This document shows positions 2,189 through 22,547 of a stretch of DNA of 38,732 nucleotides, one piece after another (positions within the stretch are counted from its first letter, which is position 1; each line of letters starts with the position of its first letter). Location of the stretch: NCBI GenBank assembly GCA_001820485.1, contig MHPU01000020.1:11589-50320 (forward strand), written 5' to 3'. A program made the position numbers and the translations under genes. The notes under the pieces are model-generated. The model had not been told where the DNA came from. It did no database searches and saw only the letters and a program-made list of their open reading frames with translations. This DNA is from Candidatus Staskawiczbacteria bacterium RIFOXYD1_FULL_32_13 (GTDB taxonomy: Bacteria; Patescibacteriota; Minisyncoccia; Minisyncoccales; Staskawiczbacteraceae).

Positions 2189-4372
2189 TCATGTTTTAAA
2201 ATCACATTCTTTAGAAGAGCATTTGATAATGCCTTTTTTTGTTTCTACGAGAATTGATTTACATTTAGGACAAAAATCTGATTTACCATCTTTATTAATA
2301 AATGGCTTGTCCCAAACTGCAAAATCACATTTTGGATAAATACTACAACCATAAAATATTTTGCCACGTTTTGATTTTTTAAAAATAATTTGTCCTTCTT
2401 TACATTTTGGACAATCAATATTAAGACTTTTTACTTCTTTAGATTCTTTAGTTTCTAAAGATTCTGTATGTTTACATTCTGGGAAACCAGTACAAGCATA
2501 AAATCTACCAAATCTCCCCAATTTTTCTACCATAGGTTTTGCACACTCAGGGCAAATTTTATCTGTAGCAACATCTGTATTTTCTTTTTTAACTTCTTTA
2601 TATTTTTCTTCTAACTTTTTTGCAAAAGGTATATAAAAATCTTTTAAAGTTTTTTGCCAAGTATCTTTGCCTTCTGCAACTTCATCAAGCTCTTTTTCCA
2701 TTTTAGCTGTAAAATCAACATCTACAATTTCAGGAAAGTTTTCCATTAAAACATTATTTACCAAAACTCCCATTTCAGTTGGAAAAAATCTTTTTTGGTC
2801 ATTTTTATTTATATAGTTTCTAGTTTGTATTGTACTTAAAGTTGGGGCATAAGTTGAGGGCCTACCAATTCCAAATTTTTCAAGAGCTTTAATTAAGCTT
2901 GCTTCATTGAATCTTGGCGGTGGCTCTGTAAAATGCTGACTCGATTCAATTTTTACCAAATCAAGCTTTTCTTTTTCTTGCAAAACAGGAAGATCCGCCT
3001 CGCTAAACTTTGTAGGATAAACTTTGAGAAAACCATCAAACTTTAAAACTTGCCCCGACGCCCGAAAAGTATATTCACCGTCATTGCGAGGAGCTGGCGA
3101 CGAAGCAATCCCAGAGGTTGAGATTGCTTCGCTTCGCTCGCAATGACGAGAAGCAACAATATCCACGGTTGTAGCATCAAATATAGCAGAGCTCATTTGA
3201 CAAGCCACAAATCTTTGCCAAATTAAAGTATAAAGCTTTAATTGCTTTGCATCTATACCTCCCAATGATTCTGGAGTTATGACTGGGCGGGTAGGTCTTA
3301 TAGCTTCATGAGCTTCCTGTGCATTTTCCTTAGCTTTAAATTTTCTAAAATTATAATAATTTTCTCCAAATTTTTCTGTAATAAATTTTTTACTAGCTTC
3401 CAAAGACGTTTCTGAAAGATTTAAAGAATCTGTTCGGTGATAAGTAATATGCCCCTGTTCATAAAGTTTTTGAGCTAATTGCATTGTAAATTTTGCAGAA
3501 AAACCAAATTTATTTGAAGCTGTTTGTTGAAGCGTACTAGTTGTAAATGGAGCAAATGGATTTTTTTTAGTCTCTTTTTTTTCAACTTTTCCTATTATAT
3601 AATCTGAATTTTCTAAATCTTTTAAAATTTCATCTGCTTCTATTTGGTTTTTAATATCTAACTTTTCTATAGGTTTCCCATCTTTTTTTACCAAAGTCGC
3701 CACAAATTTCTCGTTGTCATTCCCGTGCAAACGGGAATCCAGAGTTAATTTTGCATTCTCTGGATACCCGCTTTCGCGAGTATGACACTTACAAAGTTCT
3801 GCTTGAACAGTCCAATATTCATCGGGCTTAAAAGCTTTAATTTCGTTTTCTCTATCTACAACAAGTCTAACTGCTACAGATTGAACTCTGCCTGCTGACA
3901 AACCTCTTGAAATCTTTTTCCACAAAAAAGGCGAAAGCTTATACCCAACTAATCTATCTAAAATTCTTCTTGATTGTTGAGAATTAACCAAAGCAATATC
4001 AATTTTTCTTGGATGTAAAATTGCTTCATTAATTGCATCTTCTGTAATTTCATGAAAAACAATTCTTTTTGGATCTTTTAATTTTAATGCTTCTGCTAAA
4101 TGCCAAGAAATTGCTTCTCCTTCGCGGTCTTCATCAGTAGCTAAAATAGTTTCTTCTGCTTTTGCTGATTCTTTTTTAAGCAAAGTTAAATTCTTTTTAG
4201 CTTTTGTTGGAATAATATATTTTGGCTCAAAATTATTTTCAACATCTACCCCAATCTCAGATTTTGGTAAATCTCTTACATGCCCCATAGAGGCTAAAAC
4301 TTTATAATCTTTACCCAAAAATGATTGAATATTTCTTCCTTTTGCAGGAGACTCAACTATAACTAATTTCAT
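2189..4372 (-). CDS. topA: DNA topoisomerase I with C-terminal zinc ribbons and two in-frame repeat-derived insertions
   Basis: MKLVIVESPAKGRNIQSFLG..., TDEDREGEAISWHLAEAL, active-site region ITYHRTDS, C-terminal Cys4 ribbons. Contains peptides CHTRESGYP..DSRLHGND and RHCERSEAIS..APRND, which match palindromic repeats. Confidence 0.96.
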   Translation of the reverse strand: MKLVIVESPAKGRNIQSFLGKDYKVLASMGHVRDLPKSEIGVDVENNFEPKYIIPTKAKKNLTLLKKESAKAEETILATDEDREGEAISWHLAEALKLKDPKRIVFHEITEDAINEAILHPRKIDIALVNSQQSRRILDRLVGYKLSPFLWKKISRGLSAGRVQSVAVRLVVDRENEIKAFKPDEYWTVQAELCKCHTRESGYPENAKLTLDSRLHGNDNEKFVATLVKKDGKPIEKLDIKNQIEADEILKDLENSDYIIGKVEKKETKKNPFAPFTTSTLQQTASNKFGFSAKFTMQLAQKLYEQGHITYHRTDSLNLSETSLEASKKFITEKFGENYYNFRKFKAKENAQEAHEAIRPTRPVITPESLGGIDAKQLKLYTLIWQRFVACQMSSAIFDATTVDIVASRHCERSEAISTSGIASSPAPRNDGEYTFRASGQVLKFDGFLKVYPTKFSEADLPVLQEKEKLDLVKIESSQHFTEPPPRFNEASLIKALEKFGIGRPSTYAPTLSTIQTRNYINKNDQKRFFPTEMGVLVNNVLMENFPEIVDVDFTAKMEKELDEVAEGKDTWQKTLKDFYIPFAKKLEEKYKEVKKENTDVATDKICPECAKPMVEKLGRFGRFYACTGFPECKHTESLETKESKEVKSLNIDCPKCKEGQIIFKKSKRGKIFYGCSIYPKCDFAVWDKPFINKDGKSDFCPKCKSILVETKKGIIKCSSKECDFKT
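3079..3148. repeat. Palindromic repeat inside topA (CGTCATTGCGAG...CTCGCAATGACG type)
   Basis: Encodes RHCERSEAISTSGIASSPAPRND in the topA frame. Confidence 0.9.
3716..3786. repeat. Palindromic repeat inside topA (GTCATTCCCG...type)
   Basis: Encodes CHTRESGYPENAKLTLDSRLHGND in the topA frame. Confidence 0.92.
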
Positions 4373-10681: not shown

Positions 10682-10765
10682 GCCACGGTGATGAAATTGG
10701 CAAACATTCGGCACTCAAAATGCCGCGAGCGCAAGCTCTTGTGGGTTCAAGTCCCACCCGTGGCA
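10682..10765 (+). tRNA. tRNA-Leu (anticodon CAA)
   Basis: Acceptor GCCACGG/CCGTGGC, anticodon arm CGGCA-CTCAAAA-TGCCG, long variable arm CGAGC-GCAA-GCTC, T arm GTGGG-TTCAAGT-CCCAC; CCA not encoded. Confidence 0.95.
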
Positions 10766-10766
10766 C

Positions 10767-11387
10767 ATGAGAGGGTATTTTCGTAAAACAATTCTTAATA
10801 AAGACAAGGGATTACAAGCTTATGTTATTGGTCTCGCACTCGGCGATGGTAATTTATCTAATCCAAACGGCAAAGCTACAAGATTAAGAATAACCTGCGA
10901 CAAAAAATATCCTTTTTTGATTACAAAAATTTGTAAAGCATTAGAAAAACTGTTTCCAGAAAATAAAGTTTCTATCGTAGACAGAGATAAAGGGTGTGTT
11001 GATATAAGTATTTATTCAAATCATTTTGAAAAATTGCTAGGATGGAAAGCAAAAAACGGTTCAAAATTTGTCCAAAAAGTTAACGTACCAAATTGGATTA
11101 AAGAAAATAATAACTATAAAATAAATTGTTTACGAGGACTCATAGAAACTGATGGTTCAATTTATAACGATAGAGGCTATACAATGATGATTTTTACTTC
11201 AGTAATACCCGCGCTTGCAAAAGATTTTTATGATATGATTTTATCTCTTGAATTTAATCCTCATCTGTATTTAATAAAAAGAGGTAAAACTGCGGAATAT
11301 AAATATAGCCAGCAAGATGTTTATCATATTCGGCTTTCAAAAAATGTTTCTAAATTTTTAGAACTAGTAAAACCAGAAAAAATATAA
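10767..11387 (+). CDS. LAGLIDADG-family homing endonuclease-like protein
   Basis: Two LAGLIDADG-type motifs: YVIGLALGDGNL and LRGLIETDGSI. ATG lies 2 nt after the tRNA-Leu discriminator base. Confidence 0.85.
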   Translation: MRGYFRKTILNKDKGLQAYVIGLALGDGNLSNPNGKATRLRITCDKKYPFLITKICKALEKLFPENKVSIVDRDKGCVDISIYSNHFEKLLGWKAKNGSKFVQKVNVPNWIKENNNYKINCLRGLIETDGSIYNDRGYTMMIFTSVIPALAKDFYDMILSLEFNPHLYLIKRGKTAEYKYSQQDVYHIRLSKNVSKFLELVKPEKI

Positions 11388-16148: not shown

Positions 16149-16175
16149 AAAGCCACATCTAAAGTGGCTTTTTGT
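16149..16175 (+). terminator. Terminator after the dksA/traR-like gene
   Basis: AAAGCCAC atctaaa GTGGCTTT TTG. Confidence 0.75.
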
Positions 16176-17171
16176 TTAACTATGAAAAAATATTTTATTT
16201 TATTAATTTTTGTTATTTTTTGTTTCTTTATAAAAGATACCTTTGCTTTAGAAAAAATAAATATTAATATTGCCACCCTTGAACAATTAGATCAAATAAC
16301 AAGCGTAGGGAAGGTAACAGCACAAAAAATAATAGACTCTCGACCATTTTTATCCCTTAATGACCTATTAAAAGTCAAGGGCATAGGAGAGGCTACTTTA
16401 CAAAAAATAAAAGACCAAGGATTAGCTTGTGTTGATTGCATACCTGTCATTCCCAGCTTGACTGGGAATCCAGTAACAAACATAGAAAACTCGCAAGACA
16501 CTCTGGATTCCCGCTTACGCGGGAATGACACTAGTGATGTGCCTGTTGTTTCCATAATATATCCAAGTGGAATTATTTTTAATGAAATTTTACCAAGCCC
16601 AGAAGGGCCAGACGAACAAAATGAATTTATTGAGCTTTATAATACAAATAATTTTGATGTTGATTTATCAGAATGGAAAATAATGGACAAAGAAGGCACA
16701 AGTACAACTTTTACAATTCTGAAAGACACAAAAATTTTAGCAAATAACTTTTTAATTTTTAAAAGGCCACAAACAAAAATAAGTTTAAACAATACTAGTG
16801 ACACATTAAATCTATTTTTACCAAATGATAAAATTATAGATTCTGTTTCTTTTCCAAAGGCCATAACAAATCAATCTTATAACAAAACAGGTTTTGGATG
16901 GGCGTGGAGCTCTACTATAACCCCTAATTCAAAAAATATAATTTCTCAGCCCACTGCAACTAAAACTAATAATAATTCTACAGATAATTTAAAACTAATA
17001 GATGAAAATTTAGCTTCATTAAATAATTCTCTTGACTCGTCACCAAGCCCCATAAAAAACAATTTTTTAAGCAACAATCCTATAATATTATTTTTAATAG
17101 TTTTAATAGTAGCTATAATTTTAGCAGTTGTTGTTTTTATAATTAAACTCAAACTTTCAAAAAAACAATAA
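16164..17171 (+). CDS. ComEA-like helix-hairpin-helix protein with lamin-tail-like domain
   Basis: ININIATLEQLDQITSVGKVTAQKIIDSRPF (HhH); FNEILPSPEGPDEQNEFIELYNTNNFDVDLSEWKIMD (LTD); C-terminal TM. Repeat-derived insert between the two domains. Confidence 0.85.
   Translation: MAFCLTMKKYFILLIFVIFCFFIKDTFALEKININIATLEQLDQITSVGKVTAQKIIDSRPFLSLNDLLKVKGIGEATLQKIKDQGLACVDCIPVIPSLTGNPVTNIENSQDTLDSRLRGNDTSDVPVVSIIYPSGIIFNEILPSPEGPDEQNEFIELYNTNNFDVDLSEWKIMDKEGTSTTFTILKDTKILANNFLIFKRPQTKISLNNTSDTLNLFLPNDKIIDSVSFPKAITNQSYNKTGFGWAWSSTITPNSKNIISQPTATKTNNNSTDNLKLIDENLASLNNSLDSSPSPIKNNFLSNNPIILFLIVLIVAIILAVVVFIIKLKLSKKQ
16446..16529. repeat. Palindromic repeat inside the ComEA-like gene
   Basis: gtcattcccagcttgactgggaatccag...ctctggattcccgcttacgcgggaatgac; encodes VIPSLTGNPV...DTLDSRLRGND. 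Confidence 0.92.
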
Positions 17172-20877: not shown

Positions 20878-21811
20878 AGAAATTTTAGAAAAATACCAGA
20901 TTAAACCATCAAAAAGTTTAGGTCAAAACTTTTTAATTGATAAAAATATTTTAGATAAAATTATTCTGGCAGGTAATTTATCAAAACAAGATGTTGTTTT
21001 GGAGGTAGGGCCTGGTCTTGGAGCTCTTACGCAAGAACTAGCAAAATCAGCTGGCAAAGTAATTGCTATAGAAAAAGACCACGATATGATAAATATTCTT
21101 TCTGAAACTTTAAAAGAATTTGAAAATATAGAAATTATAGAAGGTGACGCATTGGAAATTCTTATTTCATCGTCATTGCGAGGAAGCTCGCAAGCTGACG
21201 AAGCAATCCAGAATGAGTGCACAGACTCTAGATTGCCACGCTCGTCGCCTGCAGAGCAGGCGAACTTCACTCGCAATGACAAAACTGATATTTTTCAAAA
21301 TTATAAAGTTGTTGCCAACATTCCTTATTATTTAACTTCTCACTTAATCCGAACATTTTTAGAATGTAAAAATCCACCAGAAGAAATTATTTTACTTATT
21401 CAAAAAGAAGTAGCTTTAAGAATTTGCGCTAAACCTCCAGAAATGAGTTTGCTTGCTGTATCAGTTCAATTTTATGCAAAAGTAAAAATTATTTCTTATG
21501 TTTCAAAAAATTGTTTTCTACCAGCCCCTAAAGTTGATTCAGCAATAATTAAAATAACTCCACATATAATAGAAGGGGATAAAGAATTAAATAATTTTTC
21601 AGGGGAAGAGTTTTTCAAAATTGTAAAAGCTGGATTTTCTCATCCAAGAAAACAGCTAGCGAATAATTTTATAACGTCTCTTAAATTAAATAGAAAGCAA
21701 GTTGAGGAGTGGCTTTTAAAAAATAATATTAAACCAAACCAAAGAGCAGAAACACTATCCATAAAAGATTGGAGAAACTTAGTAGAAAGTTTTCCACAGT
21801 TTGACAGCTAA
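20849..21811 (+). CDS. rsmA: 16S rRNA adenine dimethyltransferase RsmA/KsgA with repeat-derived insertion
   Basis: PSKSLGQNFLID, VLEVGPGLGALTQELA, VVANIPYYLTSHLI. Start placed at MNLTSPIAIKEILEKY, 6 nt after TATAAT at 20837-20842. Confidence 0.95.
   Translation: MNLTSPIAIKEILEKYQIKPSKSLGQNFLIDKNILDKIILAGNLSKQDVVLEVGPGLGALTQELAKSAGKVIAIEKDHDMINILSETLKEFENIEIIEGDALEILISSSLRGSSQADEAIQNECTDSRLPRSSPAEQANFTRNDKTDIFQNYKVVANIPYYLTSHLIRTFLECKNPPEEIILLIQKEVALRICAKPPEMSLLAVSVQFYAKVKIISYVSKNCFLPAPKVDSAIIKITPHIIEGDKELNNFSGEEFFKIVKAGFSHPRKQLANNFITSLKLNRKQVEEWLLKNNIKPNQRAETLSIKDWRNLVESFPQFDS
21172..21280. repeat. Palindromic repeat inside rsmA
   Basis: gtcattgcgaggaagctcgcaagctgacgaagcaatccag...ttcactcgcaatgac. 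Confidence 0.9.
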
Positions 21812-21847
21812 CACTAATAACTTGTTTTATGATATACTTTAAATATG

Positions 21848-21893
21848 AATATACCGCATATTTGCCACGACCGTAGAATTTTTGCGGTATAAA
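21848..21893. repeat. 46-bp direct repeat with inverted ends, copy 1
   Basis: aatataccgcatatttgccacgaccgtagaatttttgcggtataaa; ends ATACCGCA/TGCGGTAT. Confidence 0.97.
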
Positions 21894-21928
21894 ATTTTAT
21901 TTTTTTACTTTCTAGATACTTTTAAAAT

Positions 21929-22477
21929 ATGTCTTATTCTACTAATCAAAAAATATTATTCACATTATTGGGTTTGATTGCTACTGGTTTTTGTCACACG
22001 CCAGGGCAACAAAGGAGAGCTTTCCGAGAAATTGGGAAAATTTGGGAGAAAAATACAAACAACAAAACATTAGACAATCAAATAGATAATCTTTATCGCT
22101 CCAAATTAGTAAAACGCAAAATAAACAAAGATGGCACAATCACTTTAACTCTTACAGATAAAGGTAAGATGAAGGCTTTAACCTACAAATTTGAAGAGAT
22201 GAAGCTATCTAAGAAGAAAGACTGGGACGGCAAATGGCACATAGTGTTTTTTGATATTCCAGAAAAACAAAGGGTAGCCAGAGATATATTTAGAGATAAA
22301 ATTAAAAAAATTGGGTTTTATGAATTGCAACATAGTGTATTTGCTTTTCCTTATGAATGTGAGAATGAAATAGAATATATAATCGAAACGTATAAAATCT
22401 CAAAATGGGTAAGGTTTGGTATTTTAGAGAAGATTGACAACGATATTTATTTGAGAAATTTTTTTGGAATTAAATAA
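21929..22477 (+). CDS. PaaX-like protein: N-terminal winged helix plus C-terminal Cas2-like fold
   Basis: LDNQIDNLYRSKLVKRKINKDGTITLTLTDKGK (wHTH-like), WDGKWHIVFFDIPEKQRVARDIFRDKIKKIGFYELQHSVFAFPYECENEIEYI (PaaX-C/Cas2-like). Confidence 0.8.
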   Translation: MSYSTNQKILFTLLGLIATGFCHTPGQQRRAFREIGKIWEKNTNNKTLDNQIDNLYRSKLVKRKINKDGTITLTLTDKGKMKALTYKFEEMKLSKKKDWDGKWHIVFFDIPEKQRVARDIFRDKIKKIGFYELQHSVFAFPYECENEIEYIIETYKISKWVRFGILEKIDNDIYLRNFFGIK

Positions 22478-22501
22478 GCAAAAAATAATATCTATAATAT
22501 A

Positions 22502-22547
22502 AATATACCGCATATTTGCCACGACCGTAGAATTTTTGCGGTATAAA
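22502..22547. repeat. 46-bp direct repeat with inverted ends, copy 2
   Basis: Identical to 21848-21893; TATAAT at 22493-22498 just upstream. Confidence 0.97.

Follow-up and report, generated by a model that had tools for sequence, protein, structure and literature searches.

A family of PaaX/Cas2-like genes in Patescibacteria paired with their own palindromes

In Candidatus Staskawiczbacteria bacterium RIFOXYD1_FULL_32_13, a gene for a PaaX/Cas2-like protein lies between two identical palindromes, and together they are one member of a large family of self-contained units in Patescibacteria. Each unit is made up of a palindrome, a PaaX/Cas2-like gene and a second palindrome, with about 640 bp between the palindrome centres. 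Family genes have paired palindromes of their own type, the domains of the protein covary with parts of the palindrome, solitary palindromes (hereafter solos) lie between genes, and some palindromes stand in frame within genes whose relatives do not have them. From the sequences we infer that the protein may bind DNA, dimerize, and cut or move DNA. The favored explanation, held with modest confidence, is a REPtron-like system in which a gene is accompanied by dispersed cognate palindromes and a Cas2/PaaX-type protein takes the place of the HUH transposase. Each protein, probably a dimer, would bind its own private palindrome as double-stranded DNA, with the Cas2-like domain reading the symmetric core and the N-terminal winged helix reading the outer arms. 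The palindrome would be a small non-autonomous mobile repeat whose spread or maintenance the protein assists, much as RAYT/TnpA_REP proteins may assist that of REPs.

The query locus and its protein

The window (the whole stretch of DNA analyzed, 38,732 nt) contains two identical 46-bp repeats around one gene, exactly as originally predicted (Table 1). A third copy was not found in the window at up to three mismatches, nor in 100 shuffles. The arm pattern of the repeat occurs at just these two places in the whole 1.03-Mb assembly, and the 40-bp form of the palindrome is absent elsewhere in the 35 family genomes searched, so this is not a common genome-wide repeat. The left palindrome belongs to a family-wide set of flanking palindromes. 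The gene had been described as lone, which is true of this site but not of the genome, where nine further paralogs bring the family to 10 members. A −10 box had also been proposed before each repeat. The hexamers TATACT (21833-21838) and TATAAT (22493-22498) do exist upstream of the two copies, but promoter-like sites in the stretch are no commoner than in shuffles (7 vs 5.9) and do not include these two hexamers. Elsewhere in the window, a 206-aa open reading frame resembling LAGLIDADG endonucleases (10682-11387) begins directly after a tRNA gene.

Table 1. The query gene and its flanking palindromes, with positions in the window.
Feature	Position	Strand	Description
Left palindrome	21848..21893	+	Outer arms ATACCGCA/TGCGGTAT with core CACGACCGTA between; exact copy of right palindrome
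Gene for 182-aa winged-helix and PaaX_M/Cas2-like protein	21929..22477	+	Single gene between the repeats
Right palindrome	22502..22547	+	Identical to left palindrome; starts 24 bp past the stop codon; position follows the family rule

The assignment of the protein to PaaX/Cas2-like proteins was borne out by Pfam PaaX_M (E=4e-21; 75.4 bits against a 24-bit cut-off) and NCBIfam cas2 (27.7 bits, over its 24.5 cut-off). Pfam Cas2 falls just under its cut-off of 23.8 (E=2e-4, 22.1 bits), and the NCBIfam PaaX equivalog matches residues 74-167 only, at 31.2 bits, and does not reach its cut-off of 264.55 bits. The architecture is a winged helix followed by a PaaX_M/Cas2-like domain, without PaaX_C. 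An AlphaFold model of low-to-moderate confidence (pLDDT 68 overall, about 80 in the C domain) predicts three helices and a wing, then a ferredoxin fold of order beta-alpha-beta-beta-alpha-beta. Its best fold match is E. coli PaaX (PDB 8a39), followed by several Cas2 and VapD structures, none of them below E=0.001; sequence searches of the PDB gave weak winged-helix and Cas2-like matches only. Residues F108, D109, R118, Q134, and S136 are conserved at 98-100% across 94 family genes, and an H-x-H motif is not among the conserved columns of this alignment. None of the searches used revealed a relation to HUH proteins, and Pfam and NCBIfam return PaaX_M/Cas2 only.

The absence of cas1, originally noted for the window, holds for the whole genome: this 93% complete assembly gave no Cas1 match in a search that detects Cas1 in 9 of 14 controls. 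A CRISPR link was rejected since the genome lacks cas1. A phage origin was likewise rejected, with no relative among viral contigs (searched with single-sequence peptide patterns) and no convincing PHROG. To our knowledge, proteins of this Cas2-like type do not move DNA on their own, and Cas2-like genes of this kind have been little studied.

Paired palindromes and their covariation with the protein

At least one family gene was found in 88 of 287 genomes sampled across the phylum, and relatives of the query genome contain 0-12 members. Two hits from outside the phylum (L038, L039), both of them short fragments, were excluded, as was genome G002, in which these searches found neither ksgA nor a family gene. 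The genomes compared are mostly metagenome assemblies. In those inspected first, almost every gene copy had a palindrome pair of its own type. The palindrome statistics pick the best pair for each gene, and for this reason the controls were allowed to pick in the same way. In 80 of 94 distinct family genes the upstream and downstream flanks match (above the 99th percentile of swapped flanks), and the joint palindrome score beats 99% of random windows in 74 of the 94. Across the phylum, 16 of the 22 scorable loci are flanked by palindromes; several of the unflanked loci have a palindrome at one end only and a start codon that is often doubtful. The proposed association of the repeats with this gene family is thus a general one. 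The shared palindrome is about 36-44 bp long and specific to each element, the distance between centres has a median of 642 bp (5-95% range 596-690 bp), and the flanking copies are in direct orientation in 56 of 68 elements. No target-site duplication was found.

The core of the palindromes, ~8 bp long, is self-complementary through its middle, as in CGATCG, GCTATCGC, CTCGAG, and CCATGG. The two central pairs, 71-83% self-complementary, are among the most symmetric parts. At positions 5-7, counted from the centre, complementarity falls to 55%; in the outer arms it climbs to 82-89%. Agreement between the two flanking copies drops to background past about 24 bases from the centre. Each repeat was originally thought to be transcribed as a 5′ stem-loop, and it does fold better than shuffles (z −3.5). 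An RNA hairpin at both ends of the message, bound or cut by its own Cas2/VapD-like protein, would fit this folding and the ribonucleases known among Cas2 and VapD folds. However, a hairpin cannot contain the two central pairs, so that their symmetry points to duplex DNA, and the part next to the core that a stem needs is the least complementary. An RNA hairpin would also leave the solos unexplained, and is highly improbable. RNA stem-loops and riboswitches were rejected on this symmetry profile and on the lack of any Rfam match to the query repeat. The anatomy of the palindrome instead suggests that a symmetric protein binds it as duplex DNA.

Which part of the protein would read which part of the palindrome? 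Among 68 elements, those with more nearly identical Cas2-like domains have more similar cores (rho 0.48, partial 0.41, 0/300 permutations), and the core does not track the N domain; among paralogs within one genome the partial correlation of core with Cas2-like domain is 0.50. The arms stay similar only where the N domains are closely similar, and changes in the arms hit all four half-sites together, even at orthologous sites. The query protein and its nearest paralog are 94% identical in the C domain and 66% in the N domain, and their palindromes have similar cores and unrelated arms. One paralog (G000:C8:51481) shares 81% identity with the query protein. In the pairs tested, conservation is strong in the C domain (dN 0.03-0.07 at dS of 0.7-2.4), and dN is 0.06-0.26 in the N domain.

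Joint variation of protein and site would also be expected of autoregulated transcription factors, with the palindromes as operators on both sides of the gene (for repression, perhaps by looping) and the solos as further operators. Phage repressor genes are placed in this way between left and right operators. The winged helix, the symmetric duplex-like sites and the repressor PaaX as best fold match all suit such a role. An operator of its own was one half of an alternative in the original prediction and comes close to this covariation; the other half, a structured RNA, is not supported. Retention of a downstream operator as well as an upstream one counts against transcription factors, as does the distribution of the solos described below.

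Solo palindromes and the history of sites

The search for solos covered 990 kb of the 1.03-Mb query assembly (~96%). Several of its ten element types have strong further matches, mostly of 40-55 bits compared with chance top scores of ~6-22, and two of the types with such matches have the CCTTGT type in common. The numbers are small, from 0 to about 5 per type, and no solo of the query type was found in this genome or in the 35 family genomes. A scan blind to type returned 19 strict palindromes against 0-1 in controls. Eight of 28 solo candidates picked by structure alone match types of the same genome, a number that was also reached in 7 of 2000 sets drawn at random from foreign elements. Solos lie mostly between genes or at gene 3′ ends, with a few upstream of genes (e.g., a lexA-like and a csoR-like gene) and some in frame inside rnhB, tsaE, and a miaB-like gene. 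Some solos are of types with no corresponding gene found in the same genome.

The type of palindrome flanking the G003:C68 gene stands in frame in two genes, rnhB of the query genome (QVSHKSSDRHICAIV) and tsaE of G003 (NITSHKSSDRHIYAI); it is missing from orthologs of both. The same loop of rnhB contains palindromes of another kind in G006, G014, and G023, and in G006 (57 bits) and G014 (38 bits) they correspond to the type of an element that the genome itself contains. These in-gene insertions support palindrome mobility and speak against a pure operator role. The few solos upstream of genes would suit transcription factors; the majority lie away from promoters, those inside rnhB, tsaE, and the miaB-like gene point to insertion, and for the query type there is no other site to regulate. 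Regulation as the main role of the units is unlikely.

Several other observations concern these repeats. The rnhB loop is a spot that tolerates palindromes of several kinds, including short ones of other kinds in G003 (L190; GAGCGGTCCGACCGCTC) and G010 (L198; GGTGGGGTGTCGGACACCCCACC), and rnhB of G008 (L199) has an intein-like insertion of several hundred residues. A second, unrelated repeat class (SLRGSSQADEAIQNECTDSRLPRSS..., DSRLRGND) is also read in frame within genes, namely ksgA (window 21160-21290), topA (2189-4372), the open reading frame at 16164-17171, and the rnhB and tsaE of the query genome. In G000, pairs of solos of mostly unlike types lie 49-69 bp apart (C29:29027/29085, C18:33287/33343, C40:8214/8272, C42:28469/28535, C26:983/1032, and C18:8463/8532), oftener than chance for so few sites; these pairs bring REPIN doublets to mind.

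Many elements are found at a shared site in several species, and some of these (e.g., G000:C16 and G003:C61) have had the arms of all four half-sites replaced. Others, that of the query included, are missing at the corresponding site in relatives. The units are therefore inherited mostly, and gained or lost now and then. Orthologous elements keep matched palindrome pairs over long divergence, which leaves recent duplication, originally one of two explanations offered for the identity of the repeats, unsupported as a general cause. The gene order lysM-ksgA-X-virB6 is widely common, where X is nothing, other small genes or different family members (G006, G011). As the original prediction allowed, the gene is not always present in syntenic relatives: the query unit is missing between ksgA and virB6 in those checked. 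This site gives no clean empty site because relatives hold unrelated genes in that stretch. Across L100-L129 the ksgA-virB6 interval is variable, being empty or containing an S23-like, MNT/HEPN-like or Y1-transposase-like gene, or PaaX/Cas2-like elements.

A different history, resembling that of solo LTRs, would make the whole unit mobile in the manner of an IS element and the solos scars left after recombination between flanking copies had deleted the gene. The direct orientation of most flanking copies would permit such deletion, paralogs do stand at different sites within one genome, and ksgA of G028 is followed by a palindrome alone, at the spot that the full unit takes in the query genome. 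However, solos in frame in conserved genes would need a prior 640-bp insertion that broke the gene, and some solos belong to types for which their genome yielded no gene. A history of this kind is quite unlikely.

Most gene copies are inherited at fixed sites and are not freshly moved, which counts against the REPtron-like explanation, as do the low solo numbers, the complete lack of query-type solos, the missing target-site duplication and the moderate quality of the protein model. The original idea of a mobile cassette survives in that gene and repeats form a unit, but not as a simple one-off cassette; that reading missed the family-wide rule, the dispersed solos and the insertions in genes.

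Comparison with known systems and implications

REPtrons usually have one gene per type, two cognate palindromes and dispersed copies, with joint evolution and housekeeping-like inheritance (PMC2817692, PMC8266576, PMC3116915). The Patescibacteria units are alike in having a single gene between two cognate palindromes with further cognate palindromes scattered, in the joint evolution of protein and palindrome, in a gene mostly inherited at fixed sites, and in the lack of a larger target-site duplication. They differ in their winged-helix and Cas2-like protein, where REPtrons have an HUH Y1 tyrosine transposase, in their symmetric cores without a conserved GTAG-like head motif (no shared tetranucleotide was seen beside the palindromes in the aligned list), in far fewer solo copies, and in several unit types per genome. 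Since the features of a REPtron are present but the protein has no HUH relation, the system works like a REPtron and is not one.

The PaaX repressor shares the order of a winged helix followed by a PaaX_M Cas2-like domain. In contrast, the Patescibacteria protein lacks PaaX_C, has no paa genes nearby in the loci read, is flanked by private palindromes and has up to 12 paralogs in genomes of <1.1 Mb. Cas2 and VapD nucleases share the ferredoxin fold and the FD, R, and Q-x-S motifs, but the family adds a winged helix and palindromes of its own in a genome without cas1. Rickettsia palindromic elements, of about 150 bp, have likewise entered unrelated genes in frame, and there too the genome is a reduced one (PMC10969869). 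The insertions in rnhB and tsaE, at places empty in relatives, resemble these, whereas the palindromes here are about 40 bp long and have a candidate partner gene.

In papers open without subscription, no link of PaaX/Cas2-like genes to palindromes was found. The pairing of a Cas2-fold protein with its own palindromes would be new. It is possible, but doubtful, that this Cas2-type protein, without Cas1, is the enzyme behind the movement or copying of its own palindromic DNA. If it is, DNA would be mobilized here by a system with no relation to the HUH, DDE, tyrosine or serine recombinases, which would hint at how Cas2-fold proteins handled short DNA outside CRISPR.

With about ten proteins and ten private sites in one genome, specificity is directly testable. 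If the REPtron-like explanation is right, the Cas2-like domain appears to read DNA sequence, and dispersed palindromes within genes would gain a named candidate partner gene. The streamlined Patescibacteria would then harbour small palindromic DNA, selfish or domesticated, as a family that spans the phylum.
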